Shown here: one piece after another, positions 42,327-63,846 of the stretch
Position numbering within the stretch: position 1 is the stretch's first letter
Layout: each line of letters begins with the position of its first letter
Source of the DNA: Actinobacteria bacterium IMCC26207
Lineage (GTDB): Bacteria; Actinomycetota; Acidimicrobiia; Acidimicrobiales; Microtrichaceae
Assembly (NCBI GenBank): GCA_001025035.1
Contig: LCZK01000004.1
Span: 1 to 64,000, forward strand
DNA: 64,000 nucleotides
Direction of reading: 5' to 3'
Program-made: the position numbers and the translations under genes
Notes under the pieces: generated by a model
Seen by the model: the letters and a program-made list of their open reading frames with translations, nothing else
What the model was told of the DNA's origin: nothing
The model's database searches: none

Positions 42327-43019
42327 ATGTCGACATGGCTCTCTATCCGTCTCTTTGTTGACCGTATTCTCGGAGCGATTCTTGCAGTGCTGACGGCACC
42401 CCTCGTGGGGGTACTCGCTGTTCTGGTGCGTCGCCATGATGGAGATGCACCGCTGATCACCGTCCCACGAGTTGGAGTAAACGGCCAAACCTTTGGCATG
42501 TGGAAAATCCGCTCCATGCGAGTGGACACCGCCGATGGACACGCATCCGGCCTTGCGCTCACCAGCACAAACGATCAGCGAATCACCCCAATTGGTGCTC
42601 GCATGCGTTCGCTACACCTTGACGAATTGCCACAGCTGTACAACGTTGCGCTGGGCCAGATGTGCTTGCTGGGACCACGCCCCGAAGCCCCCGAGTTTGT
42701 AGACCTAAAGAATCCGGTCTGGCGGCAGGTGCTCACTGTCCCACCGGGAATTGCCGGCCCCACTCAACTAATCGTGGGCGATTGGGAGCGGAGTGAAATC
42801 GACAAAGACAACAACGGCGACGCGTACCAGCGAGTAGTTGTCCCTGTGAAGCTAGCGATCGACCGCTGGTACCTTACGAATGCCTCTCCCCGTCTCGACC
42901 TGTTGGTGGTAACCAGCTTGATTCGACATGTGTTGCCCGGTGGAGAGTCCAAGCGGCTACAAGAAGTAGTCGCCGCGTCAGTTCCCGAATCCTCCCTGCC
43001 AATTTTGAGCCACCCCTGA
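42327..43019 (+). CDS. Monotopic phosphoglycosyl transferase (bacterial sugar transferase, PglC/WcaJ-like)
   Basis: This 230-residue enzyme should start glycan assembly by moving a sugar-1-phosphate to undecaprenyl phosphate. One N-terminal reentrant helix (LFVDRILGAILAVLTAPLVG) is followed by the conserved GMWKIRSM, the catalytic Asp-Glu pair in LHLDELPQLYN and GPRPE. ATG 42327 follows GGTGAGGAG by 4 nt. It lies 13 nt after the aminotransferase gene and its stop overlaps the start of the phosphatase gene. Confidence 0.92.
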   Translation: MSTWLSIRLFVDRILGAILAVLTAPLVGVLAVLVRRHDGDAPLITVPRVGVNGQTFGMWKIRSMRVDTADGHASGLALTSTNDQRITPIGARMRSLHLDELPQLYNVALGQMCLLGPRPEAPEFVDLKNPVWRQVLTVPPGIAGPTQLIVGDWERSEIDKDNNGDAYQRVVVPVKLAIDRWYLTNASPRLDLLVVTSLIRHVLPGGESKRLQEVVAASVPESSLPILSHP

Positions 43020-47727: not shown

Positions 47728-49010
47728 CGCGATACCTCTTGGTCTGTGGCAGCAGCTACGCCCACTCCTGCTACATCAATCTGGTCAAGTTGCTCAAGCC
47801 AGTTTCCAACGAGTTGATGCCAACTGGCATTGGACTCAATCCAGTTCCGACCAGCCGCACCGAGTTCCGCGGCTCGCTCTGGAGAGGAAATTAACAGTCG
47901 AACAGCCTCGGCCAAATCTGCGCCATCGCCCGGTTTAGTCACGATCCCTGCCCCTGCTGCTGCGACGAGTCGTGACCCCTCGTCATCTCCGCTATAAATC
48001 ACCGGCAGGCAGCTCGACATGGTTGGGAGCATTTTTGCTGAGCGGATAGTGCGGTACACATCGCCTTCACGAACAGTCGCCAAGCCAGCGGTGCATGATC
48101 GGAGCAGTCGCGCAACCTCTTCTGGCGGCACGGGATCAAGAAAGGTCACATTTTGAAGCCCGCGGGTAGCTGCTTGCTCCTGCAGGGACTCCTTCTCGGA
48201 ACCTCCGCCGACCAACACAAAGCGGACCGGTTCATCCACAAGTTCTTGAGCCGCATCAAGCACCACCTCAAGGCCATGGACATAGCCGTGCGTTCCGGCA
48301 TACAAGAACAGATGCTCACCTGGAGCAAGGCCAAGTTCGGCTCGGACTGCAAGGTCCTGAGGTCCTGGCGAGAACATTTCGGTGTCCGCACCATTGGGGA
48401 GCCAGGTCATCTGCTTTGTCGTTACCCCCTTTTGCAGCAGGGCATCACGAACTCCTTCGGTAACTGCAGTGACTGCGTCAGCTTGGCGCAGCATGACGCG
48501 CTCGGCCCATCGGAGCAACGCAACCACGCGGCCATCAGAAATCGTTCCGATCTCGACGATGGAGTCCACCCACAAGTCGGCCACGATGATAACAATCCGC
48601 TGCCGCCTCATTTTTGCGCAGAGGACTGCGGGTAGCGCGCCAAAGAGAGTCGGGTATTCGACAATGACCCAGTGAGACTTTCGCGCAACTCCAATGCCGA
48701 GCACTGACATCACGCCGAAGGACAAGTAGTTCAGGATTCGCCCTAACCCCGAACCCATCGAGGCCCAGACCCAGACACGGCGAATCTTTGCACCGTTCTC
48801 GGACCGTGATTGAAGCGGTCGGTGAGACCAGCCTGGAAAGATCTTTCCGAGTGGATAGTTCGGTAAAGCCGTCACCACATCGACTCGGTTTCCACGGCCG
48901 ACAAGGTCAGCCACGATCGAACCCAGTCGGACCTGCGCCGCACCTCTCTCTGGTGGAAAGTACTGAGTAACTAGCGTAAAGCTATTGCTCCCCCGAGGCT
49001 TCTGGGTCAC
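47724..49010 (-). CDS. Glycosyltransferase family 4 (WbuB-like)
   Basis: The 428-residue GT-B protein begins FTLVTQYFPPERGAAQVRLGSIVADL, typical of WbuB-type fucosyl or aminosugar transferases. It has VTEGVRDALLQKG, WLPNGADTEMF and the donor loop IRSAKMLPTMSSCLPVIYSG. GTG 49010 overlaps the previous stop by 4 nt (GTGA); the longer frame to 49055 lies inside that gene. Confidence 0.9.
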   Translation of the reverse strand: MTQKPRGSNSFTLVTQYFPPERGAAQVRLGSIVADLVGRGNRVDVVTALPNYPLGKIFPGWSHRPLQSRSENGAKIRRVWVWASMGSGLGRILNYLSFGVMSVLGIGVARKSHWVIVEYPTLFGALPAVLCAKMRRQRIVIIVADLWVDSIVEIGTISDGRVVALLRWAERVMLRQADAVTAVTEGVRDALLQKGVTTKQMTWLPNGADTEMFSPGPQDLAVRAELGLAPGEHLFLYAGTHGYVHGLEVVLDAAQELVDEPVRFVLVGGGSEKESLQEQAATRGLQNVTFLDPVPPEEVARLLRSCTAGLATVREGDVYRTIRSAKMLPTMSSCLPVIYSGDDEGSRLVAAAGAGIVTKPGDGADLAEAVRLLISSPERAAELGAAGRNWIESNASWHQLVGNWLEQLDQIDVAGVGVAAATDQEVSR

Positions 49011-50203
49011 TTGGACCCACCTGCTGAACCAGGGTCGCGTAGCGTGACGCCCCACTGCCGCTGCAGCATCTCTCGCACCCGATCCTGGAAGGCTTCAAGG
49101 GTCATCGTGGCGGCGTAGTCGCGAGCGGCCACTGCCATCTGCGCCCAACGCTCACGGTCATTGATCAAGGCAATGACCAACTCAGAGAGACGCTCCGAAT
49201 CATCTGAAGGAAACACCAATCCTCGACTGCCCTCACCCGAAATTTCGCCAGAGACCGGACTCTTGCCAAACACAGGAACCGTTGCGTGGACCATACTTTC
49301 GAGTAGCACTTTGCCGTAGCCCTCTTGGCGAGTGGAGAGCAGATTCAAGTCTCCGTTTGCAAAGGCCTCCATGACATCCCCATGGCTCACCGAGCCGTGG
49401 AACGTAACGAGTTCTGCCACCCCAAGGTCACTCGCAAGTTTCTCCAATTCGCCGAGGCAGGGGCCATCCCCATACACATCAAGTGTTACTTGTAGGTCGC
49501 CCTGCACGATCGCTGGAAGTGACCGGATGATGGTTTGCTGGTTCTTGTTCGGGGTCAATCGCCCCACCGTGACGAGGCGCCACGGCCCATGAAAACTCGA
49601 ATCTTGGATTCGCAAAATTTTGGCATCGGAGCTGGGTCTTGCGCTCTCAATATCGGCGCTTGAGAACGACGGACTGAAGAACGGTTCGAGGTGGCCGAGC
49701 GCAGGATTCTTATCGGCGTACACACTGACTGGGCCGCCAAACCACTTGCTTCCTAGCAGTTTGCGTTGAAGCCGAAAGAAGCGCGGCTCGCCTACATAGT
49801 CATGCCAGACACCGGCATACATGGCGTATCGAAGTGCCCCCGCCTTCCAAGTCGAAAAAATCGCTACCAAACCAATGTTGCAGGGGCAGCGCAAGTGAAC
49901 GGCATCCACAGAGCGGGCGACGCGGCGAGTAGTCCTAGCCCATGGAATCAAATGGCCGAGCAGTCCAAACTTTGCCGCCCGGGTATTGCCCCCTGCTTTC
50001 TGCAAGGGTTCAATGCTGAGATTCGTTGACTTGTAGGGGCCGAACCCGGCGGGCGGCGGGCCAGGATCAAGCGGTGCACACAGGACAACCTCATCGAATA
50101 ACTCAGCCCAACGGTCAAGCTGGTTCACTACGGGTTCTAGCGCGCAGAGTCTGCCCTCGCTATCTCGATAATGCTGGGTATCACCAATTACAGCGAGTCG
50201 CAC
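49007..50203 (-). CDS. Glycosyltransferase family 4/1
   Basis: The 398-residue protein begins VRLAVIGDTQHYRDSEGRL and shows the GT-B donor region: LVTVGRLTPNKNQQTIIRSLP, VYGDGPCLGELEKLASDLGV, FHGSVSHGDVMEAFANGDLNLLSTRQEGYGKVLLESM. GTG 50203 has GGGGAGGG close upstream. Open sequence continuing to 50452 overlaps the upstream gene and is not used. The acceptor is unknown. Confidence 0.9.
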   Translation of the reverse strand: MRLAVIGDTQHYRDSEGRLCALEPVVNQLDRWAELFDEVVLCAPLDPGPPPAGFGPYKSTNLSIEPLQKAGGNTRAAKFGLLGHLIPWARTTRRVARSVDAVHLRCPCNIGLVAIFSTWKAGALRYAMYAGVWHDYVGEPRFFRLQRKLLGSKWFGGPVSVYADKNPALGHLEPFFSPSFSSADIESARPSSDAKILRIQDSSFHGPWRLVTVGRLTPNKNQQTIIRSLPAIVQGDLQVTLDVYGDGPCLGELEKLASDLGVAELVTFHGSVSHGDVMEAFANGDLNLLSTRQEGYGKVLLESMVHATVPVFGKSPVSGEISGEGSRGLVFPSDDSERLSELVIALINDRERWAQMAVAARDYAATMTLEAFQDRVREMLQRQWGVTLRDPGSAGGSK

Positions 50204-50273
50204 AACCCTCCCCTCAGACAAAATCCGATGCCAAAAACCTGCTGCTGAAAACTTTGGCGCAGTTTGGGCACCC

Positions 50274-51896
50274 TCACAGCTTAGGGATTCGAGGCCCGTC
50301 CTCCACCATCTCGTCAGCAATGTGCAAGGAGGCGCGCACGCGCTTGACGGTCGAGGGCAGGTGCACCACTTCGCCCGCAACAAAGCCCAGCCACTGCCGA
50401 GGTGAGGCCCGCCGCTTGAGTTCGTAGGGGACGATTGATTGGGACAAACCAATCACTAGGTCTTCGCGAACCTGCCGCTTGGAGTGGTAACGCTTGGTGT
50501 AATACACCATCGAAGGCAACGGAAGGGGTGAGGTCCGGTCGCGGTGTCGGAAGCCATCTAGGGAGCCAAAGGTCCGAAGGCCACCTTCTTGAGCCTTGAG
50601 GTGTACACGAATCGCATGAGGGTTATGGATGACTAAACAGCCGCCAAGTTGGACGCGTAAGCCAAACTCGGCGTCGCCTCTGCGCTGCCGGTCGAACTGC
50701 TGATCAAAAAGCCCAAAGCGTTCGAGAAGGCTTCGATGACACATTCCGTTGCCAGAGTCCCACTGATCAGCCACACGGAAGAACGCATAATTCTCTGGGA
50801 TCGGAGCACCGATCACGGCTAGAGATGCCCCAGTAGAAAGATCGGCATCGTAACGATGCAGACCCTCAAGGTGCTGCTCTAAAAAGTCCGGGCCTACCTC
50901 TGAGTCATCGTCTACAAACGCAATCCACTCACCAGTTGCTTGCTCAACTGCTGCGTTGCGTGCCAGCCACTGGCCGCGCTCTACCTGAAAAATCACCTCA
51001 AGGTTGAGATCCGCGAACTCCTCATAGATTGCGTGATCGCGCTTGTCGATGTCGTTCTGATCCACAACTATTACTTGTTGTGCCATCAAGGTCTGCTTGC
51101 GGAGTTGTTCGAGGACTGGCCGCAACAACTCATATCGACCAAGGGTTGGTAAGACCACCGTGATAGCAGGATTCTCGGGGCTTATGACGCTGTCTCTCGT
51201 GACTACCCGATCGGTACTTCCAGGACGCGGGGTAGCACTTGTGGAAGCGGCCGAACTTTTTAGGGCGGAGCGGACTTTCAGGGGGCGAAGGTGAGCCATC
51301 GATCGACGTGCCGCCGCGTACCGCACCCACTTTCGACCAAAGACCCTGCGAAGAAACACGAACCTGTCGTGCTCACTCAACCGGTCTGACAACGTGCCTC
51401 GGCCGTTCACCAAGCGTGGCGTATGCATCACCACGGCACCTCGGTCGATCATTCGGCGGCCAAGCTCAAGGCCTGCACCAGTAGTTCCCTCGAATGCAGC
51501 GTCAAGACCTCCGAGTGTGCGGAGCACCTGCGTCTTGACAAGAAATGCCGAGAGGGTGAGGCGCCAAGACACCGAATCAATCGATGCATCGGCGTCCAGA
51601 GCAAGCGGCCAAATCGGGTGGATGTAGTCATGCTCCTCTGGCTCGCCGGCTAACCCAAAGCAAAGCCCTGCGTGCCAAGCATCGGCACGCTCTTGCAGAA
51701 GAGCAGCAATCAAATCAAGGTCGGGCTCACCAAGCATTGGATCCCAAAAGAGCAACCATTCAGCCTGCGTCGTAGAGAGGACGTCATCAATTTCTGCTGC
51801 TGCACGAGGAATGCTTGAGGAGAGAGACGTCACCGACCCGAGTGGCCAGTTCTGCTTCCACTTGCCCCAAACGAGCAGATCTACTGTTTCAGCCAC
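50274..51896 (-). CDS. Two-domain glycosyltransferase family 2 protein
   Basis: The ~540-residue protein contains two GT-A-like parts. The first (about residues 1-215) keeps an outline of a GT2 fold (WLLFWDPMLGEPD, AFLVKTQVLRTLGGLDAAFEG) but its DxD is weak. The second (from about 240) is canonical: ITVVLPTLGRYELLRPVLEQL, IVVDQND, WIAFVDDDSEVGPDFLEQHL and RRGDAEFGLRV. The start is uncertain; GTG 51896 follows GGGGGG, while the frame is open to 51995. It is probably the first gene of the minus-strand glycan operon. Confidence 0.85.
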   Translation of the reverse strand: MAETVDLLVWGKWKQNWPLGSVTSLSSSIPRAAAEIDDVLSTTQAEWLLFWDPMLGEPDLDLIAALLQERADAWHAGLCFGLAGEPEEHDYIHPIWPLALDADASIDSVSWRLTLSAFLVKTQVLRTLGGLDAAFEGTTGAGLELGRRMIDRGAVVMHTPRLVNGRGTLSDRLSEHDRFVFLRRVFGRKWVRYAAARRSMAHLRPLKVRSALKSSAASTSATPRPGSTDRVVTRDSVISPENPAITVVLPTLGRYELLRPVLEQLRKQTLMAQQVIVVDQNDIDKRDHAIYEEFADLNLEVIFQVERGQWLARNAAVEQATGEWIAFVDDDSEVGPDFLEQHLEGLHRYDADLSTGASLAVIGAPIPENYAFFRVADQWDSGNGMCHRSLLERFGLFDQQFDRQRRGDAEFGLRVQLGGCLVIHNPHAIRVHLKAQEGGLRTFGSLDGFRHRDRTSPLPLPSMVYYTKRYHSKRQVREDLVIGLSQSIVPYELKRRASPRQWLGFVAGEVVHLPSTVKRVRASLHIADEMVEDGPRIPKL

Positions 51897-51918
51897 TGGC
51901 CCCCCGTGTGTCGTTCTG

Positions 51919-51966
51919 TGTGCTTGAACTTCTGTGTGCTCGAACTTCTGTGTGCTCGAACTTCTG
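51919..51966. repeat. 16-bp tandem repeat, three units
   Basis: Three units of TGTGCTCGAACTTCTG (one C/T difference in the first) lie in the 218-bp divergent region between two glycosyltransferase genes. No reading frame there is convincing. The repeat may lie in the promoter or leader of the minus-strand operon. Confidence 0.9.
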
Positions 51967-52114
51967 TTGCTGAGAAACCAAGCTGCACTCGTCATCGGCC
52001 CTACCGTGGCTTCGGTTCTAGAGCACGAGGTTTCTCAACCTACTCAGGATACGATACGCCGAGTCGATTGCGATCCCTCTTCTTCATGCACCTCAGTCTT
52101 GTGACTGCACTCCT

Positions 52115-53275
52115 ATGACCACTGAGCAAGCCACCACTCCTCGTACCCGCTACCCCCGTGCCCAGTGCGAGGTCTCTGTTGCCCTCTGCACGCTCAACGG
52201 ATCGCAGTGGATTGAAGAACTTCTTCACTCGATCGCGGCTCAAGAACTCCTGCCTGATGAGATCGTCATCCAAGACGACTGCTCCGAGGACGACACGGTG
52301 GAACTCATTGAGAAGTTCGCAGGCCAAGCACCATTCGCCATTCGTCTAGAAGTGAATCAGTTCCGACTTGGATCCACGGCGAACTTCGCTACGGCTCTGG
52401 CTCGCTGTCACGGACGTTTCATCGCTCTTGCCGACCAGGATGATGTTTGGTACCCAATAAAACTTCGTCGCCTGATTGACGAACTTGAGTTAGACCCCAC
52501 CGTCACCATGGTGTTCTCTGACGCCGACTTGATCGGACCAGATGGTCAAGATTTAGGCCAACGCCTGTGGGACACCCGCCTGATCGGGCGGACTCTCAGA
52601 AAACGGGCGGTTGTGCCAGAAGAGCTTTTCGCTCGCCGAGCACTGACTACTGGTTGCACGATGGCGGTTCGCAGGCGCGCTGTTGCTGCATCGCTGCCCT
52701 TTCCCGAGGCTCTCGAGAACGAGGCTGCACCGATGCGCCACGATCGTTGGCTCTCGCTCGTGGCAGCTTCGGTGGGAACCGTTCGGGCACTTCCCGATTC
52801 GCTCCTTGGGTTTCGGGTCCACCCCGATCAAGAAACTGGAGTTCTCGTTGGAGCGCAACTCACACATGCTTTGGGGCGCGCAGCATCCGCTGTGTTTATC
52901 GCTCCAGTAGGCCAGAGCAACGAGTCTCACCTAGCGCGTGCGAATCAACTCGAGGCAGCGGCAGAGCGGGCCAACGAGATGGGTGACTTTGAAGAGGCAT
53001 TGACGCTGGAGGCAATCGCAGCCCACCACCGCAGCAGAGTCCAAACTTCAGGATCCCTGCTTGACCGACTCCGCTGCATCGCCGAGGGAGTTCGAGTTGG
53101 TGCCTATGGCTGGGACCGACTCGGGATGGTGGCAGTCGCAGGGGATACCGTGCGCTCGGTCCGACCCGGACGTGGCGCACAGTGCGAGCCAGCCATCCAC
53201 AGCGACCCAGCCATCCACAGCGAGTCAGCCCCTGGCAGCGCGCCAGGCCCCGAGAAGCAGATTGAGGGCAGCTAA
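52115..53275 (+). CDS. Glycosyltransferase family 2
   Basis: The 386-residue GT-A enzyme has VSVALCTLNGSQWIEELLHSI, IVIQDDCSEDDT, the metal site ALADQDDVWYP and acceptor region TTGCTMAVRR, resembling rhamnosyl- or capsular transferases. The C-terminus is a low-complexity tail with a six-residue repeat (PAIHSD/PAIHSE) from an 18-bp duplication at 53190-53225. Its stop overlaps the next start (TAATG). It begins a plus-strand operon running to 58180. Confidence 0.92.
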   Translation: MTTEQATTPRTRYPRAQCEVSVALCTLNGSQWIEELLHSIAAQELLPDEIVIQDDCSEDDTVELIEKFAGQAPFAIRLEVNQFRLGSTANFATALARCHGRFIALADQDDVWYPIKLRRLIDELELDPTVTMVFSDADLIGPDGQDLGQRLWDTRLIGRTLRKRAVVPEELFARRALTTGCTMAVRRRAVAASLPFPEALENEAAPMRHDRWLSLVAASVGTVRALPDSLLGFRVHPDQETGVLVGAQLTHALGRAASAVFIAPVGQSNESHLARANQLEAAAERANEMGDFEEALTLEAIAAHHRSRVQTSGSLLDRLRCIAEGVRVGAYGWDRLGMVAVAGDTVRSVRPGRGAQCEPAIHSDPAIHSESAPGSAPGPEKQIEGS

Positions 53276-54453
53276 TGCTCCGCAAGATGAAGGTCATGAT
53301 GGTGACTGACTCACTTCAGGTGGGCGGTGCCGAACAAGTTGCAGTAGATATCGCTAACAGCTTGGACCGAGATACCCATCAGGTTTATTTCTGCGCCACT
53401 CGAACAGACGGCCTGCTTCGCTCAAGCCTAAAATCCGATGTTGAAATCATGGTTCTTGAACGTTCAGCAACTTGGGATTTGCTGAAGCTGCTGGCATTTG
53501 GAAAGTACGTGCGCAGCGAAGGAATCGACGTTCTGCATAGCCATGGACGCGGCACCATGCGCTTCATTGCGCTCTGCAAAGCTCTCGGGATCATTCAAGC
53601 TCAGCATGTTTTTCATGACCATTTCGGGCGCCTCCATCTTGACCGCAGCGCCGGACCTGGAATGAAAGTCCCCCTGCATCGCGGTGTGGATGCCTATATC
53701 GGTGTTGAATCTCGGCTCTGCAGATGGGCAATCGACACGGTTGGGCTGCCCGAGGCCAAAGTGAGTTTGGTGAGGAGTGGGGTTGACCTTGAGCGCTTCT
53801 CCACTGCCCCGGCTATCAACCTTCGAGACGAGTTCGATCTTGGCGAGGGCAATCTTGTCCTGCTGATGGTTGCCAACTTTCGCCCACAGAAGGATCACCC
53901 CACTCTGTTTCGGGCAATCGCAGAGCTCGCCCCGGCCCAGCAAGAGAGCATTCGACTTGTTGTCTGCGGCAGCACAACCGCAGACCCAGCCTATTTTGAG
54001 GGCTGTATGGCGATGCTTGAGCGGCTCAAGATTGACCACCTCGTGCGAACTATTGGCGTGAGGAATGACGCGCCCTCTCTGATGGCCGGTGCAGACGCTG
54101 GCGTCTTTTCATCTAAGAACGAATCGGGCCCGCTGGTGATCTTGGAATACATGGCAAGCAGGCTTCCCTTTGTAGCAACCGAAACGGGCGAGATTGCGCA
54201 TGCCGTTAAGGATGAGGGCGTGGGCATCCTGACTGAGCCCCGCGACTACCTAGCTTTGGCTGACGGCCTGGCGGCACTGCTTGACATGACAGCTGAGGAG
54301 CGTGCCGCTATGGGCGAGCGTGGCCGGCAACTCGTTATTGAGGAATTTGAGCAACAGGTAGTAGTCCGCCAAGTGGAGGCAATTTATGATCACCTCCTTG
54401 GCCTCAGCAGCCAGAGTTCCGACTCCAAAAAATCTAACCTAGCGAACGGGTAA
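53275..54453 (+). CDS. Glycosyltransferase family 4
   Basis: The 392-residue GT-B enzyme has VMMVTDSLQVGGAEQVAVDIAN, VLHSHGRGTMRF, RSGVDLERF, LMVANFRPQKDHPTLFRAI and the donor motif ESGPLVILEYMASRLPFVATE. It lies between a GT2 gene and the BY-kinase. An internal ATG at 53287 (MKVMMV) could be the true start. Confidence 0.92.
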   Translation: MLRKMKVMMVTDSLQVGGAEQVAVDIANSLDRDTHQVYFCATRTDGLLRSSLKSDVEIMVLERSATWDLLKLLAFGKYVRSEGIDVLHSHGRGTMRFIALCKALGIIQAQHVFHDHFGRLHLDRSAGPGMKVPLHRGVDAYIGVESRLCRWAIDTVGLPEAKVSLVRSGVDLERFSTAPAINLRDEFDLGEGNLVLLMVANFRPQKDHPTLFRAIAELAPAQQESIRLVVCGSTTADPAYFEGCMAMLERLKIDHLVRTIGVRNDAPSLMAGADAGVFSSKNESGPLVILEYMASRLPFVATETGEIAHAVKDEGVGILTEPRDYLALADGLAALLDMTAEERAAMGERGRQLVIEEFEQQVVVRQVEAIYDHLLGLSSQSSDSKKSNLANG

Positions 54454-54542: not shown

Positions 54543-56333
54543 ATGGAACCAATGCAGGATCGAACTGAGACCAATATCGGCGAGTACATCGCGGTATTGC
54601 GGCGTCGTTGGATGGTCATTGCAGGAACCATGATTCTGGTCATCGCAATTGTCGCAGCCCTAGATTTTTCGAAGACCCCGATTTACGAAGCATCTTCACA
54701 ATTGCTCCTGCAGCCAAAGCAGTCCGAGTCAATCTTCTCTCCGGCTGTTTCCTCGGTAGACCCGACCAGAGCAGTGCAGAATGAACTGAAGATCATCAAT
54801 TCCCTAGCGGTGCGCACGGCCGTGGCCAAGGCTTATGGCGAGAAGATCTCTATCTCTGCTGTTTCCGGTGGCGATGACGACGTCATTATCCTTTCTGCTA
54901 CGGATTCCAGCCCCAAAGATGCCGCTCGAAAAGTCAATGTGTACGCCGAGACGTACCAGTCGGAGAGATTCAACGCGATTGTTGATGACCTCACGCAGTC
55001 CAAGCTTGTCTTGCAACAGCAGATCGACGATTTCCAAAAAGAGATCGACTCGATCAACAAGCCGCTGGCCGCACTTGACGAGAAACTCGCAGCGACTCCG
55101 ACCACTGACCCGACCTATGCAGACCTCAGCGCCGAGCGCGAGCGGCTTGACCAGCAAATTCAAGTACGGCGTGCCGATATGGAAAGTCAGCTGAGTGACT
55201 ACCAGCAGCGCCTGCAAGTACTTCAGCTCTCTGAGCGTCTAACTACGACCGGTGGTGTTCAGATTCTTAATCCGGCCACGGTCCCCTCCTCACCCATCTC
55301 TCCGAACATCATTCGAGATCTGGTGCAGGCAGCACTGATCGGCTTCTTCTTGGGAGTCGGTTTGGCCCTGATGCTCGAGCAGGTGGATGACTCTATCCGC
55401 AGCCCTGGTGACCTTGAGCGTGCCACGAAGGGCATTCCGACATTAGGCCTCATCCCCCTTGATGATGGGTGGAAAAACAAAGACGAACCCCGGCTGACCA
55501 CGCTGGCAGCGCCCATGTCAGCGACTGCCGAGGCCTATCGCGGCCTCCGCACCACGCTGCAGTATTTGGCGTTGCACCGCCCCATGGGGGTCGTGCAGAT
55601 TACGAGCGCAAGCGCCCATGAGGGAAAGACCTCCACCATGGCAAACCTAGCGATTGCCTTTGCCGAAGCAGGTATGCCAGTTGCAGTGGTTGGTTGCGAC
55701 CTTCGACGACCCCGTGCGCATAGCTTCTTACAAGTTGACGGGGCCATCGGTCTGACTTCGGTTCTGCTGGGCGAGGTTCCCCTTGAGGTTGCCCTGCAAC
55801 AGTCACCAGTTCACCCCAACATTCGAGTTCTACCGTCAGGTCCTCGGCCGCCGAACCCTTCCGAGCTTCTGAGCTTGGACCGTACCTCGGAGTTGATTCA
55901 CTCCCTACTCGATAACCACTCCATCGTGTTTTTGGATTGCCCGCCGGTTCTTCCAGTGACGGACTCACTCGTGCTCTCGCGGTGCGTAGATGCTTCACTG
56001 TTTATTGCAAAGGCGAACAGCACCTCAAAGCGAGAGGTCAAGCGGTCACTTGAACGTCTCACTCAGGTCAACAACCCACTTGTGGGCACAATTCTGAACG
56101 GTGTAGATGCCGAGGGTGCCTACGGATCACTCTACGACTACTACGGATACTCCAAAGAGACTCGCAGTCGGTTCTTACCCAAGCTCTTCAAGCGCAGCGT
56201 TCCAGATATTCCCAAGCTTGATCAAGCAGTTCTGCCGGGCATGGAATCAGATGGCAGCACCCCGGTCGACAGCTTCGGGAATGACCAAAACGATGGGGAC
56301 CAGGTCTCTGGCCCAGCACCTCTCAGCAGCTGA
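54543..56333 (+). CDS. Polysaccharide chain-length regulator / tyrosine autokinase (Wzz-BY-kinase)
   Basis: The 596-residue protein is a fused Wzz and bacterial tyrosine kinase. Residues ~12-265 are the Wzz part, with helices at ~24-40 and ~258-278 and a periplasmic-side coiled coil between. The kinase has Walker A SASAHEGKTS (~354-363), Walker A' VVGCDLRRP (~382-390) and Walker B IVFLD (~461-465). A tyrosine cluster at the C-terminus (Tyr527-536) is the likely autophosphorylation site. It controls polymer length and export; the LMW phosphatase at 43019 is the likely antagonist. GGGGAAG lies ~9 nt upstream. Confidence 0.95.
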   Translation: MEPMQDRTETNIGEYIAVLRRRWMVIAGTMILVIAIVAALDFSKTPIYEASSQLLLQPKQSESIFSPAVSSVDPTRAVQNELKIINSLAVRTAVAKAYGEKISISAVSGGDDDVIILSATDSSPKDAARKVNVYAETYQSERFNAIVDDLTQSKLVLQQQIDDFQKEIDSINKPLAALDEKLAATPTTDPTYADLSAERERLDQQIQVRRADMESQLSDYQQRLQVLQLSERLTTTGGVQILNPATVPSSPISPNIIRDLVQAALIGFFLGVGLALMLEQVDDSIRSPGDLERATKGIPTLGLIPLDDGWKNKDEPRLTTLAAPMSATAEAYRGLRTTLQYLALHRPMGVVQITSASAHEGKTSTMANLAIAFAEAGMPVAVVGCDLRRPRAHSFLQVDGAIGLTSVLLGEVPLEVALQQSPVHPNIRVLPSGPRPPNPSELLSLDRTSELIHSLLDNHSIVFLDCPPVLPVTDSLVLSRCVDASLFIAKANSTSKREVKRSLERLTQVNNPLVGTILNGVDAEGAYGSLYDYYGYSKETRSRFLPKLFKRSVPDIPKLDQAVLPGMESDGSTPVDSFGNDQNDGDQVSGPAPLSS

Positions 56334-56336
56334 CGT

Positions 56337-57518
56337 GTGATCCGGCCACTCGTCAGGTTCCTTGCACATGGCGCCGAGCGGAGCGGCCCTCCGATCTATC
56401 TACTTCGGCTGTTTCGTTACTGGAATGAAAACCCGGCTGCCTTTGACACAGAACTTGTTCTTGCTCGGCCCGGTGAACTGGTCTCGCAGTTTGCTGGACT
56501 GACCAACACAACCGTCGCACGCCTTGACCAACGATCTCCTGAGATGGTTTTTCAGAGTCTGACTCGGGCTGCGCATGTAGGCGGGCTCGGCGCGAGTGCT
56601 GTGGGCTATGCCAGCCGGGCAAGAGTCAGAGGCAACCCCTTCAGCGCCACGCGACGTCAAGCAGATATCACCATTGTCAACGGGGCAACAGCGCCCACCG
56701 TCGAACTCCTGCGTCAGCTTCGCTCCCCTGCTCCGATTCTGACCATTGCGCATGAGCTCTCCACGGGCTGGTACGGCAACCTAGACAGCAAAGACCGTCA
56801 GTTTCTGCTGGCAAAGACAGACCGATACCTAGCAGTGTCTGAAGCAGTCAAAAGCTTCCTGATTGATGACCTTGGAGTCAGGCCAGACAACGTCACCATG
56901 GTCCACCCTCCTGTTGACCTCAGTGAATACCAAGACCCAAAATCAACTCGGCCCAATGACGGAATTCTGCAGGTAGGCGGCAGCGGCATGACCGATTGGC
57001 GAAAGGCACCCGAGATTTGGCTCAGGATTGCAGCCGAGTTGCGAGACATGTTGCCCAAAGAGACTCTACGCTTTACGTGGCAGGGTGGAGATAGTCCGCA
57101 CTCCCCTGCATTCTGGCCGTTGGAGCATGAGATGAGACAACTGGGATTATCTGAGCAGGTGACCTTCACGGGTCAGATACCAAATACTGCTCCTGCCATG
57201 AGTCAGTTCGATATTTTTGTCTCCACTGCGCGAGAAGATGCCTACCCCCTTGCCTGCGCTGAGGCGATCTCGCTCGGCGTGGCAGTCGTTGGCTTTGATA
57301 GCGGCGGCTTATCGGAGATGGCAGAGGAGTCGGGCTGCGCCCTAGTGGTGCCCTATCCGGATCATGGTCTGATCAGCCAGACAGTCGCCGACCTACTCGG
57401 TGACCCCAATAGGCGGGCCGAACTTTCTCAGAAGGGTATTGAGTTTGGTCGCACCCAACTCGATGTTTCACATATCGCTCCGGCCGTGGCCGATTGGATT
57501 ATGAGGGCTGCAGCATGA
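56337..57518 (+). CDS. Glycosyltransferase family 4
   Basis: The 393-residue GT-B enzyme shows FLAHGAERSGPPIYLLRLF, IAHELSTGWYG, YLAVSEAVKSFLIDDLGV, VHPPVDLSEYQD and the donor region STAREDAYPLACAEAISLGVAVVGFDSGGL. The start is GTG, 3 nt after the kinase stop. It overlaps the next gene by 4 nt. It belongs to the plus-strand glycan operon. Confidence 0.91.
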   Translation: MIRPLVRFLAHGAERSGPPIYLLRLFRYWNENPAAFDTELVLARPGELVSQFAGLTNTTVARLDQRSPEMVFQSLTRAAHVGGLGASAVGYASRARVRGNPFSATRRQADITIVNGATAPTVELLRQLRSPAPILTIAHELSTGWYGNLDSKDRQFLLAKTDRYLAVSEAVKSFLIDDLGVRPDNVTMVHPPVDLSEYQDPKSTRPNDGILQVGGSGMTDWRKAPEIWLRIAAELRDMLPKETLRFTWQGGDSPHSPAFWPLEHEMRQLGLSEQVTFTGQIPNTAPAMSQFDIFVSTAREDAYPLACAEAISLGVAVVGFDSGGLSEMAEESGCALVVPYPDHGLISQTVADLLGDPNRRAELSQKGIEFGRTQLDVSHIAPAVADWIMRAAA

Positions 57519-58180
57519 CCCCGCTCCGCTGGTGGGGAGTGTTTGCCGTTGCAGTCATCTTGTCTGCGGCAATCCTGCTCACGACCCTGGGATCAAATGG
57601 TGAGATCCGCGTTGACCAGTCTGCATCCGCCCCGGGTTTTGACGGCAAGGATCGAGAAATCGACCGCTCAGAGTTCTCCTTTGCAGCCCCCTCCACCACT
57701 GCAGGACCAACCACAGTGCCGAGAGGTAAACGCCCGGCCGGGTCCCGACGCACGACAACGACATCCACGACAACTACGACCACCATCCCTCCTGCGACCA
57801 CAACTGTTCCGCCTAGCGCTCTGTTCTTGCCAGAAACTTCTAGCGTGGAGTCACTGTGCGACATGGTGAAGTCGGTCGAGTCACTTCAACTCATCTTCAC
57901 GGATCCGTCCGTGAACGCCGAGCAGACAATGTTGAGAATCCTCAGCAACTTTGACCGCTATCTGCAGGTATCCCCGCCAGAACTGACCTCCAACATCATT
58001 GGCATTCGCGAGTCCCTAGTACTCCTCAGAAATCAACTCAGGGACGCAGCCTGGAACGGCGCCAACCCTTCTCTTCGACCGATACTTGACGGATTTCGCT
58101 ACGAGAAGGCACCTGTTGCAAACTTCCAACAACAGATCAGAGAAATCGAGTTCTACAACGCCGCAACCTGCCCGGCCTAG
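57515..58180 (+). CDS. Membrane-anchored protein with Thr-rich linker
   Basis: The 221-residue product has one N-terminal membrane helix (WWGVFAVAVILSAAILLTTLG), then a disordered Thr/Pro-rich linker (about residues 65-105, with TTTTSTTTTTTIPPATTT) and a ~110-residue helical domain with two cysteines (SLCDM and the C-terminal TCPA). It should stand outside the membrane like a stalked protein, and the Thr stretch might be O-glycosylated. No family is recognised. ATG 57515 overlaps the glycosyltransferase stop by 4 nt. Confidence 0.75.
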   Translation: MTPLRWWGVFAVAVILSAAILLTTLGSNGEIRVDQSASAPGFDGKDREIDRSEFSFAAPSTTAGPTTVPRGKRPAGSRRTTTTSTTTTTTIPPATTTVPPSALFLPETSSVESLCDMVKSVESLQLIFTDPSVNAEQTMLRILSNFDRYLQVSPPELTSNIIGIRESLVLLRNQLRDAAWNGANPSLRPILDGFRYEKAPVANFQQQIREIEFYNAATCPA

Positions 58181-58219: not shown

Positions 58220-58993
58220 TTAGCTGGGCCAGGGTTCTTCGGCCAACACTGACGGGCCTTTGGGACGATGAGGAGGCTGGTGGGTAAACGGGAAGTCATC
58301 CGCCAGGCGGTACCGCCATTTTTGGCCCTGCTCATCAGTGAAGAAGTAAAGGAAATCAGCCGTTTCAGAGACAAAGCCCAGTGCCATAACGATGCGCAGG
58401 TGGTCAGACTTGTTCTCACTTGAACTATGGATCAGGGCGTTGTGAAAAATCACCGCTTCACCGGGCTTGGTGGTTACGTTGACGAACCCGTGCAGGTACG
58501 GCTCAATCGAGGTGGGCGGTGTTCCGCGATAGGGCAGATCAAGGCGATGACTCCCAGGCACCACGCTCAGACCGCCGTTGAACTCATCCGTTGCCTCCAA
58601 TGGAAACCAAAGTGCCCCGCTGACGTGGCGAGTCTCGTCAACGAACGACCAATCCTGGTGAGCGTCAATTGGACTCCCCTCCCCAGGAGACTTGACCCAG
58701 AGACTGCCCACATAGAAGCGGTGGTTACACATGATGGAATCGGCGAAGGGCTGCAGTTCTTTGCGGACTGCGGCATCTATTGTCCGGCGGAGTTCAGGGG
58801 TGTCATGTTTATAGAGAGTAAAAAACGGGCCGCTGTCCGGGGGAATGAGTTCTGACATTCGCTCACGCAGAGCGTCCAAGCGCTCGGGATCAACTAGAGG
58901 AACAACGGTGAACCCCTGCTCGCGAAACTCTTGATCAGCCGACTCACTCAGCAAAAGCGGAACCCGATCCACGCCGTCACTCACTCGTGTCAT
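58220..58993 (-). CDS. Phytanoyl-CoA dioxygenase-like Fe(II)/2OG oxygenase (PhyH 1)
   Basis: The 257-residue protein has the PhyH double-stranded beta-helix: FREQGFTVVPLVDPERL, the iron ligands HQD (His112, Asp114) in DAHQDWSFVDE, WFPLEATDEFNGGLSVVPGSHR, and His189 with Arg200 for 2-oxoglutarate. The facial triad looks intact. It would hydroxylate or otherwise oxidise an unknown substrate. It is on the minus strand, divergent from a second PhyH gene 79 bp away. Its place in a glycan locus suggests a sugar or lipid-linked substrate rather than phytanoyl-CoA. Confidence 0.88.
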   Translation of the reverse strand: MTRVSDGVDRVPLLLSESADQEFREQGFTVVPLVDPERLDALRERMSELIPPDSGPFFTLYKHDTPELRRTIDAAVRKELQPFADSIMCNHRFYVGSLWVKSPGEGSPIDAHQDWSFVDETRHVSGALWFPLEATDEFNGGLSVVPGSHRLDLPYRGTPPTSIEPYLHGFVNVTTKPGEAVIFHNALIHSSSENKSDHLRIVMALGFVSETADFLYFFTDEQGQKWRYRLADDFPFTHQPPHRPKGPSVLAEEPWPS

Positions 58994-59072
58994 ACGGCAA
59001 GCTTACCGTCGCTGCTACGAACTGGCACACAGCGGCAGCCGATTCTGAAGGCATTCCCTGTACCATACGGTT

Positions 59073-59933
59073 ATGCGGAATTGGTTCGATAGCTTGCGTG
59101 GACGGAGCCGCGACCGACGCTCTGACTCACCGGTTGCTGCGCCTCGGCGCACAACGCTGCGTGACCCTGAGCTGCAACGGGAGTTTGAGGAGTCCGGGTT
59201 TGTGGTGGTCGACCTGATCGACCCCGAAACTGTTGTGGCCCTGAGCCAGCGCTATGACTCGATGGACCACGAACAGCGGACACAGTTCGATTGGGTGGAT
59301 GGATTCGATACGTCTATTTACGACAAGCGTCCGGAGTACCGATCCGAGGTCTTCGAGTTGATGCAGGAGCAGTTCAGCCCTGCTTTAGAGCGCGTGCTGA
59401 ACGATTACGAGATCATGTTTGCGAACTTCATCGTGAAGTACCCGCATTCCGACATGGTGCCGCCACACGTAGATTGGACGTTTCTCGATGAGGAACAGTT
59501 CAGTTCGGCCACCGTCTGGTGCCCGCTTGTTGATACGACGCCAGCCAACGGAACTCTGGGGGTGGTGTCGGGCTCGCATCAACGGATCGACTTTCTCCGA
59601 CCGTCCAACGTCCCCACCTATGAGCGTTGCGAGCTAGCGGTTGCCGATATTGAGGACCGGCCGGTGATCTCACTGCGAGCGGGCCAAGCAATCATCATGG
59701 ACAACCGCGTCGTTCATTTTTCTCCGCCTAACACCACTGAGCTTGACCGAGTTGCCGTGGGCTGCGTGGTCGGGCCGAGAGAGGCCGAGTTGCATCATTA
59801 CTGGGTGAATGAAGATTCTGAACTCATGAAATACCAGATTGACCGGTCTTTCTACTTGGACTTCGTTATCGGCGCGCCTCCAACAGAATCAGGCGGCGTG
59901 CTCAGCGCCAGCGTCGTATCTACCAGTGTTTGA
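59073..59933 (+). CDS. Phytanoyl-CoA dioxygenase-like Fe(II)/2OG oxygenase (PhyH 2)
   Basis: The 286-residue protein has FEESGFVVVDLIDPETV, the HxD in PPHVDWTFLDE (His132, Asp134), CPLVDTTPANGTLGVVSGSHQ, His215 and Arg226. The triad is complete. It differs strongly from its two neighbours, so these are not recent copies. A basic N-terminus (RGRSRDRR) precedes the fold. The first unit of a 16-bp repeat array contains its stop codon. Confidence 0.88.
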   Translation: MRNWFDSLRGRSRDRRSDSPVAAPRRTTLRDPELQREFEESGFVVVDLIDPETVVALSQRYDSMDHEQRTQFDWVDGFDTSIYDKRPEYRSEVFELMQEQFSPALERVLNDYEIMFANFIVKYPHSDMVPPHVDWTFLDEEQFSSATVWCPLVDTTPANGTLGVVSGSHQRIDFLRPSNVPTYERCELAVADIEDRPVISLRAGQAIIMDNRVVHFSPPNTTELDRVAVGCVVGPREAELHHYWVNEDSELMKYQIDRSFYLDFVIGAPPTESGGVLSASVVSTSV

Positions 59934-59989
59934 TTTTTGCTGTGTTTGATTTTTGCTGTGTTTGATTTTTGCTGTGTTTGATTTTTGCT
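59926..59989 (+). repeat. 16-bp tandem repeat, four units, between PhyH genes
   Basis: Four perfect units of GTGTTTGATTTTTGCT run from the end of PhyH 2 into the gap. Each contains a T5 run. A stop TGA recurs in each unit. They occupy most of the 93-bp gap before PhyH 3. Confidence 0.95.
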
Positions 59990-60026
59990 GCACATTCCCC
60001 CGAAAGAGAACTAGTTCTGGAGTGAG

Positions 60027-60965
60027 ATGACTACACCTGTCTACGAAGGATTCGAGCGTCAAGAAGACGGTCGGATTAGACCGCCCAAGATGTTCAACGA
60101 CGAAGGCCTCGATGCCGCCTTCTGGGCGAACGGATTCGTGAAAGTGCCCCTCCTTTCGGTGGAGGAGATGAGCAGCCTTCGCGAGAACTTCGCTGAGCTC
60201 TCACCCACAGACGGCTTCGACCCGCGGAACCTAGAAAATCCCCGTTGCGAGTACCACTGCACTTTTCTTGATCCGAATCTTGAGTACAGAAAACAGTCTG
60301 ATCACCTTGTCCGAACTGCGATGGCTGAGCAAATCAAGGCAGTTCTGCCTGGCTACCGAATCCTGACGAGCAACGTCTACGTCAAGCCAGCCGGCACCGG
60401 GCGATTTGAGATACACCAGAACTGGCCCACCATCGAAGACATCGATATTCCTACCGTGACGGTATGGGCACCCTTGCAAGACACTGGGTTCAAGAACGGA
60501 ACTATTCGCGTTGTTCCCGGCGGTCACAGGATTTTCCCAGATATTGCCGCAGCAACCTCGGACCGTTTCTTTGATGAATTCGAGACTGAACTCATCGAGA
60601 CCTACCTTGAGCCCGTCAATGTTGCTGCCGGTGAGGCCTTGATTTTTGACGATTCCCTGCTGCATTGGTCCAGCGACAACCTGTCCGAGAACCCTCGCAT
60701 CACCTTTCAGATCGAGATGGTTCCTCAGGACGCTCAGACCGTGCTCTGGATCCGTAACCCGGACGACCCAACTCAGTTTGACCTGTGGGAGGCTGCCACT
60801 GACTTCTGGCTCGAATATGACATGGAGTCGGTGCTTGGGCGCCCCGAAGGATTGAAGTTCTTGGGAACCCGACCAAACCCGAATCAACACCTGAGCTTGG
60901 AAGAGTTCGATGCCCGCATGCAGCGGGCGAACGAAATCCGGCGGGCCAAGTACGTACTTGACTGA
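60027..60965 (+). CDS. Phytanoyl-CoA dioxygenase-like protein with HxN (PhyH 3)
   Basis: The 312-residue protein keeps the PhyH outline: FWANGFVKVPLLSVEEM, VWAPLQDTGFKNGTIRVVPGGHR, His213 in LLHWSS and Arg224. The proximal iron motif reads EIHQNWP, so the usual Asp is Asn132. Some PhyH relatives also have HQN, but loss of the carboxylate could change or abolish oxygenase chemistry. The C-terminus is ~40 residues longer than in its neighbours. ATG 60027 has GGAGTGAG upstream. It lies 10 nt before the next gene. Confidence 0.86.
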   Translation: MTTPVYEGFERQEDGRIRPPKMFNDEGLDAAFWANGFVKVPLLSVEEMSSLRENFAELSPTDGFDPRNLENPRCEYHCTFLDPNLEYRKQSDHLVRTAMAEQIKAVLPGYRILTSNVYVKPAGTGRFEIHQNWPTIEDIDIPTVTVWAPLQDTGFKNGTIRVVPGGHRIFPDIAAATSDRFFDEFETELIETYLEPVNVAAGEALIFDDSLLHWSSDNLSENPRITFQIEMVPQDAQTVLWIRNPDDPTQFDLWEAATDFWLEYDMESVLGRPEGLKFLGTRPNPNQHLSLEEFDARMQRANEIRRAKYVLD

Positions 60966-60975
60966 GACCACAGAA

Positions 60976-63846
60976 ATGCCCAAATCTCGAATCACGCAAG
61001 TAGCTTCTTCTGGGTCAGTCATCGTTGTTGCGTGGGGGCTTGCTTGCTTACAGGCGCTCCTTGACCTAGTTGCGAGGAAGGCGCGAATTAGCGCTGAGCC
61101 CGCGCTGATCTCGCTTCAGATCGCTGTGATTGTCTCTGCACTCCTGCTGTGGTCTCTGGTCGCTCGCCACCTTGAGAATCGGGGACTCGATGAGGCCACG
61201 TCCCGGCCAGTCTGGCGTCTCTGTCTTTCTCTGGTGAGCTTGCTCTGCTGTATTGCGTTGCGCATAGTGATCTCCCCCATCGAGCCGAGCGTTATGTGGC
61301 TCGCGCCTGCACTTCTGGTTGCGCCCGTACTTCTGGGTTTTGAGCTTCTCAGTTTTTGCCGAACAGGTGCCCGAATGAGCAGGGTATTCATGGAGCGGCT
61401 GGCTGCAACCTGGAGCGGGATTGCAGCGGTGCTCATTCTGGCTATCGCGGCTGGACCCCTGACATGGGCTCAGGTGCACGTTCGAGTAGTGGAGTTGCAC
61501 TTTGTTGCACTGAGTGTGGTTCTTACTGCTGGCTCAGCAGCCCTTTCAGCAGCCTCGCGAAGGCACTGGAGTGGCAGCATTAGATTTGTTTTTATTGCAA
61601 CTGCGGCGGCCTTCGCTGGACTGTGGACCAGCACAGTCGATAACAGTTTCACAAGAATCTGGCCGACCTTTGTTGCAGTTCTAGTCATCCTGTTCGCTCT
61701 TGCCATCCCAGGGGGCGCCATCGGTTCTGCCGCAGCGGCGACGAAGATTTGGGCGGGCCAGGGTGTTCGGATTACCAGATCCTCCGCGACGCGAGCCCAA
61801 CACGGTGTAGGTAGGGCAGCTCGAGCCTGCATCGGCTTGTGGCACCGGCTAGAACTCTTTGCCAGTTCGCCTCAACCGAGATCAAGGCCACTGCTGACAC
61901 GCAGCGACCGAATTGGTGCAACTGTCATGGCGTTTCTGGCTATGGCTTATGTGGCAAGTGGTGCAATCTGGTCGTACCGAATCGGATGGCAACCAACTGC
62001 ACACGCTGCGACAATCATGGCCCGAGCATTCGACGTGGGCACCGTCAACCATCCACTCGTCGGGATGGCGACAAGCTTGGGGCAGGTTGGGTCGGCATCA
62101 CACCCCGGTCCCCTGAGCATGGATCTGCTTGCACCGTTTGTACGCCTATTGGGTCTTCAGAACGGAGCCCGTGCAGGTGCTGCGTTTGTGGTCCTCACCT
62201 GTTGGTCAGTATCTGTCTGGTCAGCCTGGCGTGCAGCAGGTCGAGTAGCTGCTCTCGGGGCATGGATGATGTGTGCCGTCATCTTGCAGGTGGCCGCATT
62301 TGGTGCAGTCTGGGAAGCCAACAACGTCACAATCACAATTTTGGCCATGTTCGCCGCCGTCCTGGCTAGTTGGGCTGCGGCGACTGGAACTTGGAGAGCC
62401 TGGTGGTGGGCAGTGGGCCTTGGCAGCCTCTGCGCCCAGAGCTACCTGCCGCACGCCCTGATCGTTCTGGGTCCCATCCTGTGGGCTGGACTCGCTGTTG
62501 CAGGTGCAGCCCGTTTGGCGACTGATACACACCAGGCACGACGGGCTCGACAGGCTGTTCGCGTGGGATGGGGCATTGCGCTGCTTGCATGGGCTCAACC
62601 GGCGCTTGACGTAGTGATCAACAACGGTGGCAATGTCCGGGCGCTGATCGGAGAGATCAGCAGTCCGCGCCCACCAGTCGGACCGATTGGGTTTCCTCGA
62701 GCCATTGCCTGGATCTGCTCAATACCGCCCCGCTGGGGAGAAGTCACCAGGAGCTTTGCTCAGGCCGGCTCAGCGAACGAACTCATCAGAGGACCCTTCA
62801 TTTCCGGAACAATTGTTGCCCTTGCCCTGTGCTTTATCTGTGTAAGGACTAGAAAGACAACTCCTCCTCATGAGCGGCAACTTCGAATCATCATTCTGCT
62901 CCTAGTGGTCGGCGCAGCAGTGAACACCACGCAACTTCCACAGGATTATCTCCGAGCTTTTCAGATTGGCTGGCTAGTAGTTGCCTCTGCCTGCCTCTGG
63001 TATGCCGTTGGGATTTCGACCGTTTTCGCAGTTCAACGCAAACTCGGGTCAGGGGTCTCGGATTGGGTTTCGCTATCCCTCAAAGTCTCTGCGCTCGCTA
63101 TCGGTGCTTTGGTTATCCTTGCCGCAGGCCTTGCTCGACCCGAGCGCATCGAGGATGCGAAAAGTCCTGCTTTCACAATCGACGCCATGGTCGAGCCCGC
63201 AGTTGACCAGACCATGGAAAAGGTTGACTCCAGCAACCCGATTTTAGTACTCAGCCTAGATAATCAACTCGTTGAGTCTGCAACCGACACCATTGTTTCT
63301 AACCTCATTGTCAAAGGCCTTGACTCTCGAACTGAGTCAAGGGGCGAGCACTACGGAGAGCGACGAGTCGTGAAGCACTGGCGCGGCCCCATGCTGTGGG
63401 TCGCGAGCGGTTTAGCACCGGTTAAGCCGAATGGAGACTTGCTTGCTTCGGTCTCCATGCCCGGATGGTCGAGGGCAAAGTTCGACGCCCTCGCTGAGAA
63501 GGTCTCTTCGGATGCAAAAGCTGGATCGGGTGTGCGGCTTCAGCCTTGGGTCGAAGAACTCTTGCCGCGCTATCTGGCTGGGTGGATGGGTCCCGAATCC
63601 TGCCGTATTGCAAAAGGGATTGTTGACGGAACCTACCCGGTGGAGTCGCTTCCACCCGGATTACTGCTCACTTTGTATGGTGATCAAGCAATAGCTAGCC
63701 CTGCATTGCCCCCAGAGACTCAAGAAGAGGCCTCGGCCCTACTCGGCCAAGCACCGCTCGAGGTTTGGTCGGTGAATCAGAAAACAGAAACCGCAACGGA
63801 CACAGCAACCCTGCTACGCGATGGGTCACGCTGCCCTGCCGCCTAG
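60976..63846 (+). CDS. Large polytopic membrane protein, GT-C glycosyltransferase-like
   Basis: The 956-residue protein has about 14 or more hydrophobic helices up to residue ~760 and then a soluble C-terminal domain of ~190 residues. After the region at ~360-400 a conserved-looking loop reads FDVGTVNHPLVGMATSLGQV...SHPGPLSMDLLAPFV, similar to the first outward loop of lipid-linked-sugar (GT-C) transferases in actinobacteria. It may transfer sugars from polyprenyl donors outside the membrane. No exact family is claimed. ATG 60976 is chosen; the open frame back to 60910 overlaps PhyH 3. Confidence 0.72.
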   Translation: MPKSRITQVASSGSVIVVAWGLACLQALLDLVARKARISAEPALISLQIAVIVSALLLWSLVARHLENRGLDEATSRPVWRLCLSLVSLLCCIALRIVISPIEPSVMWLAPALLVAPVLLGFELLSFCRTGARMSRVFMERLAATWSGIAAVLILAIAAGPLTWAQVHVRVVELHFVALSVVLTAGSAALSAASRRHWSGSIRFVFIATAAAFAGLWTSTVDNSFTRIWPTFVAVLVILFALAIPGGAIGSAAAATKIWAGQGVRITRSSATRAQHGVGRAARACIGLWHRLELFASSPQPRSRPLLTRSDRIGATVMAFLAMAYVASGAIWSYRIGWQPTAHAATIMARAFDVGTVNHPLVGMATSLGQVGSASHPGPLSMDLLAPFVRLLGLQNGARAGAAFVVLTCWSVSVWSAWRAAGRVAALGAWMMCAVILQVAAFGAVWEANNVTITILAMFAAVLASWAAATGTWRAWWWAVGLGSLCAQSYLPHALIVLGPILWAGLAVAGAARLATDTHQARRARQAVRVGWGIALLAWAQPALDVVINNGGNVRALIGEISSPRPPVGPIGFPRAIAWICSIPPRWGEVTRSFAQAGSANELIRGPFISGTIVALALCFICVRTRKTTPPHERQLRIIILLLVVGAAVNTTQLPQDYLRAFQIGWLVVASACLWYAVGISTVFAVQRKLGSGVSDWVSLSLKVSALAIGALVILAAGLARPERIEDAKSPAFTIDAMVEPAVDQTMEKVDSSNPILVLSLDNQLVESATDTIVSNLIVKGLDSRTESRGEHYGERRVVKHWRGPMLWVASGLAPVKPNGDLLASVSMPGWSRAKFDALAEKVSSDAKAGSGVRLQPWVEELLPRYLAGWMGPESCRIAKGIVDGTYPVESLPPGLLLTLYGDQAIASPALPPETQEEASALLGQAPLEVWSVNQKTETATDTATLLRDGSRCPAA

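Follow-up and report, generated by a model that had tools for sequence, protein, structure and literature searches.

The stretch of DNA analysed here (the window) comprises the first 64,000 nucleotides of contig LCZK01000004.1 (C4) in the 3.3 Mb genome of Actinobacteria bacterium IMCC26207 (G000). Towards its right end lie three adjacent genes, named PhyH A, B and C, coding for PhyH-type Fe(II)/2-oxoglutarate (2OG) oxygenases of 257-312 residues, in what, judged by its gene content, is a polysaccharide locus with ATP-binding cassette (ABC) export. An original prediction, made from the DNA alone, had described these three open reading frames, their iron motifs (HQD, HVD and HQN) with distal His and Arg kept in all, and a divergence too large for fresh duplicates. 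Our analysis bears this out: all three proteins match PF05721 (PhyH) above its gathering score of 22 bits, the motifs are as described, the distal His and the Arg are present in A, B and C alike, and pairwise identities are 26-32%. A is transcribed divergently from B and C, so the three genes do not form one operon. The positions of these and other features of the locus are given in Table 1.

Table 1 Features of the locus, numbered along contig C4, of which the window is C4:1-64000.
Feature	Position	Strand	Remarks
DegT aminotransferase and bacterial sugar transferase (initiating type)	41126..43019	+	PF01041, PF02397
Glycosyltransferases and AMP-ligase-like gene	45254..54453	.	left half of glycan region
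Wzz/BY-kinase-like chain-length protein	54543..56333	+	PF02706, PF01656, PF13807
Glycosyltransferase group 1	56337..57518	+	PF00534, PF13692
Conserved protein	57494..58180	+	no Pfam match; homologue adjoins A in a relative (L064)
PhyH A	58220..58993	-	HQD triad, 257 aa; PF05721 84.2 bits
PhyH B	59073..59933	+	HVD triad, 286 aa; PF05721 72.1 bits
PhyH C	60027..60965	+	HQN, 312 aa; PF05721 57.3 bits
K120 codon in C	60384..60386	+	invariant Lys in alignment
H130-Q131-N132 codons in C	60414..60422	+	altered HxD motif
D209 codon in C	60651..60653	+	4 residues before distal His; proposed relocated carboxylate
His213 codon in C	60663..60665	+	predicted distal iron ligand
Arg224 codon in C	60696..60698	+	predicted 2OG-binding Arg
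978-aa protein	60910..63846	+	mostly helical, presumed membrane protein; no Pfam, NCBIfam or PDB match
PhyH D	C4:68690-70681		HxD; fused behind a ~370 aa domain with no family assignment
WelO5-family protein	C4:70791-71774 (L009:15791-16774)		HTA for HxD; between PhyH D and E, outside window
PhyH E	C4:71790-72689		HQN
PhyH F	C4:73905-74762		HxD
PhyH G	C4:74948-75838		HxD

A, B and C open a larger set that extends to their right. The genome has 11 PhyH matches, of which four are scattered on contigs C8 and C9 and seven (A-G) lie at C4:58-76 kb, with pairwise identities of 20-34%. The iron triad HxD/E...H is present in A and B and replaced by HQN in C and E, and on this basis C is classed as a PhyH-fold variant and not as a canonical PhyH enzyme. 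To the right of the window, a family 2 glycosyltransferase (GT2), a NodU-type carbamoyltransferase and a GDSL protein precede D, while G is followed in order by Wzt, Wzm, AsnB, a UbiA protein with a C-terminal extension, a radical S-adenosylmethionine (SAM)/SPASM protein, a second GDSL protein and a second NodU. The Wzm/Wzt pair consists of an ABC-2 permease (PF01061) and an ATPase (PF00005), and is found alongside glycosyltransferases.

Phylogenetic analysis places the HQN proteins together. A tree was built from 113 domains representing 24 sets of loci, after ten short or motif-less domain matches had been dropped; in it, the 21 HQN rows and one HHH row form one clade, with a support of 94 in the Shimodaira-Hasegawa-like approximate likelihood ratio test. 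Its C-type branch (support 99) contains proteins of the genus studied here, Ilumatobacteraceae, Saprospiraceae, Rhodanobacteraceae and Chthonomonas, and its E-type branch (support 91) those of Acidimicrobiia-type metagenome-assembled genomes (MAGs) and Bacteroidota; both branches cross phyla. When the motif columns and column 209 are removed, a quick tree method still recovers the N rows as one group (85), with 20 of the 21 and the HHH row joined at 95. HxN is a conserved subfamily across phyla and not a single-gene oddity; a one-off change or sequencing error is ruled out by its conservation in the genus and beyond. B-type proteins group with Bacteroidota HQD proteins, several of which adjoin HQN genes.

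The HQN clade was compared with 85 HxD rows, using the numbering of C. K120, H130, H213 and R224 are kept in both groups; both His, the Arg and the Lys are retained in 21/21 HQN rows, and the Arg after the distal His, predicted to bind 2OG, is invariant in the PhyH set. Besides N132, the sites specific to the clade are L107, N116, G125, I206, D209 and Q228. At position 209, which precedes the distal His213 by four residues, 21/21 HQN rows have Asp versus 2/85 HxD rows; in the HxD rows the residue is mostly Asn, His, Ser or Gln. The same holds out of sample, with Asp in 10/10 HQN versus 0/52 HxD rows (identical domain strings were counted once; near-duplicates are possible, and pieces of one genome overlap), and only two of 47 background HxD domains have Asp at this place. 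When pooled, all 31 HQN domains combine the loss of the carboxylate at the HxD site with Asp at distal His-4, which is found in 4/184 HxD domains. B shows the reverse of the pattern in C, with its motif Asp at D134 and N211 four residues before the distal H215, versus N132/D209; in HxH rows, distal His-4 is Asn in 6/7. This coupling is suggestive but not proof, and from the alignment two of the seven PhyH proteins seem to have moved the key acidic residue of the iron site to a new place.

A precedent for such a site is found in human AspH. According to the accessible part of PMC13168262, the active 2OG hydroxylase AspH has no more than H679 and H725 at its iron site; water fills the carboxylate site and is held by the second-sphere D721, and the D721A variant is substantially less active. 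D721 is H725-4, the same spacing as between D209 and H213 in C, and in both proteins the 2OG Arg follows the distal His. This equal spacing is our reason for regarding C and E as most likely active oxygenases of an AspH-like kind. The two differ in that AspH belongs to another sequence family and acts on epidermal growth factor (EGF)-like domains, and that HQN proteins have Asn at the former ligand place. Since PhyH is the sole Pfam match of C, and the AspH sequence family is not matched, the likeness concerns only how the enzyme would work. An AlphaFold2 model of C (predicted local distance difference test, pLDDT, 89.4; predicted template-modelling score, pTM, 0.91) has SnoN, SnoK, HygX, KanJ and EvdO2 among its fold neighbours in the PDB; AspH is not among the neighbours shown, which is no evidence of its absence.

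The HQN genes are maintained by selection. The array as a whole is preserved in five further species of the genus, with C present in 5/5 of their genomes at 87-96% identity. The linkage of A-B-C, which the original prediction had proposed to check in other genomes, is preserved in synteny in G002, G003 and G004, and in G001 and G005 a contig end lies beside C; E is HQN in G001, G003, G004 and G005. Between G000 and G003, C has a ratio of nonsynonymous to synonymous substitution rates (dN/dS) of 0.065 and E one of 0.053, within the range of the other five PhyH genes (0.050-0.121), so that the constraint on HQN genes equals that on HxD genes; the values for A, B and C are 0.065-0.098. The HQN genes are thus under strong purifying selection. 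Fresh duplicates or pseudogenes as an origin of A-B-C are ruled out by dN/dS of 0.05-0.12 and by the identities among the seven PhyH proteins.

The enzyme encoded between D and E matches PF22814, the family of the free-substrate halogenases WelO5 and AmbO5, with 339.8 bits (cut-off 27; E 1.8e-101), and its HTA aligns with the HVG of WelO5. WelO5-type copies read HTA in the genus and HxG in most others, the exceptions being HCE (second copy of G367) and HIH (G370). All keep the distal His and Arg, and the residue at distal His-4 is, in the contexts printed, Gly, Asn or Ser and never Asp. Halogenases usually have Ala or Gly instead of the carboxylate, as stated in the accessible part of PMC8407142. 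WelO5-type genes (E<1e-40) occur in 7 of 80 genera of relatives, the same seven that carry arrays of PhyH genes, and in 6/299 Flavobacteriales, all six among nine array genomes and five of them with the gene on the array contig; the hypergeometric values for this linkage ignore relatedness. Among 296 genomes of the phylum, that of IMCC26207 gave the only strong WelO5-type match. Known members are described, as far as the available sources go, as acting on hapalindole-type alkaloids, whereas the array copies, putative halogenases, sit in glycan loci; AdeV, described in part of its source as acting on 2'-deoxyadenosine monophosphate (2'-dAMP), provides a precedent for a sugar-ring target. Halogenation in the locus is a possibility.

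Similar arrays were found in other bacteria. Among 99 relatives searched, the own genome included, arrays with strong matches are present in 17 genomes of 7 genera. A search with patterns that contained HQN or a second motif, and thereby enriched its results for HQN, gave 24 loci in Ilumatobacteraceae/Microthrixaceae MAGs, Bacteroidota (Flavobacteriales, Crocinitomicaceae, Chitinophagales and Saprospiraceae), Rhodanobacteraceae and a Chthonomonas MAG. Most contain several PhyH genes, up to the ten PhyH domains that L109 contributes to the tree set, and many lie near Wzm/Wzt, UbiA, radical SAM or NodU relatives; in L100, L106, L110 and L117, no further PhyH domain lies on the pieces examined. 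With a profile built from HQN rows, nine of 299 Flavobacteriales genomes were matched at E<=1e-30. Six of these nine, which are all six with E<1e-60, have HQN, and three (G463, G616, G622) do not; the remaining motif-bearing PhyH domains in the fetched loci are HxD. Five consecutive PhyH genes lie between Wzm and Wzt in G566, G604 and G650, and the second one is HQN, that of G604 being split by an in-frame TAA. HQN is thus regular inside the loci and found in 0/47 background PhyH domains, for which 8/54 loci gave no domain spanning both motif sites and were left uncounted. What would have refuted the original prediction, HQN as a common active variant and the three genes unlinked in relatives, was not found: the genes are linked.

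Taken together, the explanation we favour, with a probability of about 0.55, is that these genes form a tailoring array of a surface polysaccharide exported by Wzm/Wzt, and that this array includes AspH-like HQN oxygenases. Several PhyH-type oxygenases, carbamoyltransferases and radical-SAM enzymes would modify sugars before export. The HxD members A, B, D, F and G would be ordinary oxygenases. In C and E, iron would be held by two His, the carboxylate site could take up water or, as a weak ligand, Asn132, and Asp209 would supply charge from the second sphere, while the WelO5-family member would leave the carboxylate site open for halide. What the sequences show directly is the gene content, its conservation, a single HQN clade, the N132/D209 coupling, purifying selection and the linkage with WelO5-type genes; catalysis, site geometry, substrate and the presence of the products on the polymer are inferred from them. 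Judged by the gene content, the product would likely be a surface polysaccharide that leaves through the ABC transporter after several oxidative steps and perhaps halogenation. Wzt may recognise the modified end of the chain, by analogy with other systems (described in the accessible part of PMC9445017); the 409 aa ATPase is long enough for a C-terminal carbohydrate-binding domain, and gave no domain match past the ATPase. The stepwise glycan oxidation by three enzymes proposed originally is therefore retained as oxidative tailoring in several steps, but by seven PhyH proteins joined to Wzm/Wzt, carbamoyltransferases and a WelO5-family enzyme beyond the window. Likewise, of the structural role or altered chemistry suggested for the HxN member, the structural role is the less likely half, given the invariant His pair, 2OG Arg and Lys and the Asp at the AspH position.

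Several observations weigh against this explanation. HQN is not in every array, being absent from G463 and apparently lost in G622, and G466 has a C-type HQN gene with no PhyH or Wzm/Wzt within ~9-10 kb. The N132/D209 coupling comes from one clade and thus represents a single event or few, and further sites (N116, G125, I206, Q228) are specific to that clade. Moreover, another PhyH domain lies within 400 bp of 18/32 HQN domains, which also fits a partner role; in one of these cases the neighbour is the other half of the split G604 gene, and in another it is HHH.

Such a role is possible, and would make the HQN proteins non-catalytic partners in heterodimers with a neighbouring HxD PhyH, like TlxI/TlxJ of fungal meroterpenoid synthesis, a PhyH-fold pair of non-equivalent members. 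The close neighbours are usually HxD, a single open frame encodes both an HxH and an HxD domain in each of L082, L083 and L085, TlxIJ (7vbq) is a fold neighbour of C (Z 16.2), and TlxI is called auxiliary in the accessible part of PMC12141560. TlxI, however, is said in the available source to be without the 2OG Arg, which HQN rows keep together with the Lys and both His; a dead subunit would not need a new Asp at the AspH position, and the isolated gene of G466 has no partner nearby. The dead-subunit reading is lowered by these points to roughly one chance in a few. A slightly stronger contender, though still a doubtful one, is a variant of the favoured explanation, in which the side-chain oxygen of N132 binds iron, D209 only orients N132, and the result is an ordinary hydroxylase whose third ligand is neutral. 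Asn is indeed invariant at 132 in the HQN clade, unlike the Gly/Ala of halogenases, and the reciprocal pattern of B fits as well, but AspH works with water at that site, according to the part of its description available.

Two further explanations concern the locus as a whole. It would be rather unlikely that it makes an exported small oligosaccharide antibiotic of the orthosomycin type, with PhyH enzymes closing orthoesters, instead of a surface polymer. Carbamoyltransferases and radical SAM enzymes are also found in orthosomycin-type pathways, and the nearest solved structures include EvdO2, HygX, KanJ, SnoK and SnoN, a likeness of fold and weak sequence similarity only. Nevertheless, Wzm/Wzt, Wzz, an initiating sugar transferase and many glycosyltransferases fit a polymer, as do the Flavobacteriales arrays that are flanked by Wzm and Wzt. 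It is very improbable that PhyH genes of unrelated function have merely gathered here by chance. PhyH genes as such are frequent in the order (eight in G038, at scattered sites), but groups of at least three within 20 kb were found only in G000 among 60 genomes of the phylum and only in G372 among 60 genomes of its order (from match tables, E<=1e-15 matches only), and synteny in the genus and recurrence across phyla also speak against chance.

Among known systems, SnoN/SnoK, HygX, EvdO2 and KanJ share the PhyH fold and are antibiotic-pathway oxygenases acting on sugars or sugar-bearing substrates, whereas sequence identity is ~15-20%; to our knowledge they are natural-product enzymes that do not belong to polysaccharide export loci. 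A genomic parallel is XAC3597 of Xanthomonas citri, a PhyH-like gene of a lipopolysaccharide cluster with wzm and wzt (PMC3130047); the accessible part of that report describes one PhyH gene and mentions no array, HQN or WelO5-type gene. A literature search covering titles and abstract openings, for part of the literature, gave nothing on such PhyH arrays, HxN PhyH enzymes or bacterial halogenated glycans.

A bolder extension, which we hold only tentatively, is that loci across phyla make multiply oxidised and halogenated glycans with HxD, AspH-like HxN (carboxylate moved to distal His-4) and WelO5-type HxG/A chemistries side by side, and that an AspH-like iron site evolved in PhyH independently of AspH. 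If true, the PhyH family would show that the iron-binding carboxylate of 2OG oxygenases can shift to the second sphere and persist there across phyla, a natural test of the purpose of this ligand. Furthermore, WelO5-type halogenases would gain a home outside alkaloid clusters, and there would be a pointer to bacterial surface glycans containing unusual, perhaps halogenated, sugars.

The neighbours of the PhyH genes inside the window agree in part with what was first proposed. The Wzz-kinase assignment to the left is confirmed by its three Pfam matches; the supposed GT-C-like neighbour is a 978-aa protein that matches nothing in Pfam, NCBIfam or PDB and whose model (pLDDT 40) is unusable. The ATG used for it overlaps the end of C, and the true start may be later. 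This protein is only 45-47% identical to its counterparts in the genus, which hints at a replacement, and other species of the genus have radical-SAM and GT2-like genes between C and the 978-aa protein, both of which G000 lacks (window 60965-60976 versus L063:15721-17864). Beyond the window, the UbiA-GT protein has no PDB match and only weak NCBIfam matches, and the N-terminal domain of PhyH D has weak squalene-cyclase-like or TED-like matches, all below cut-off. The latter domain (in L009:13690-15681) is a separate protein at L078:16992-18179 and L110:10861-11922, and the copy in L110 adjoins a C-type HQN gene.

A few other observations concern related loci. Six HQH/HHH rows form a second, separate clade (support 99); this His-for-Asp variant occurs in L072, L074, L082, L083, L085 and L090, and a three-His iron site is possible. 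In G466, the C-type HQN gene (L193:8041-9781) directly adjoins a short-chain dehydrogenase on a 20 kb piece with no other PhyH or Wzm/Wzt. Four sibling species (L062:13542, L067:5608, L069:5196, L070:1021) have an eighth PhyH gene (HRD), absent from G000, with Wzm on one side and AsnB on the other. Finally, three MAG contigs titled 'Bifidobacterium breve' (L098, L114, L117) carry array genes more than 90% identical to those of the genus studied here (93% for E in L098, and 95-96% for the C orthologues), and their titles look wrong.

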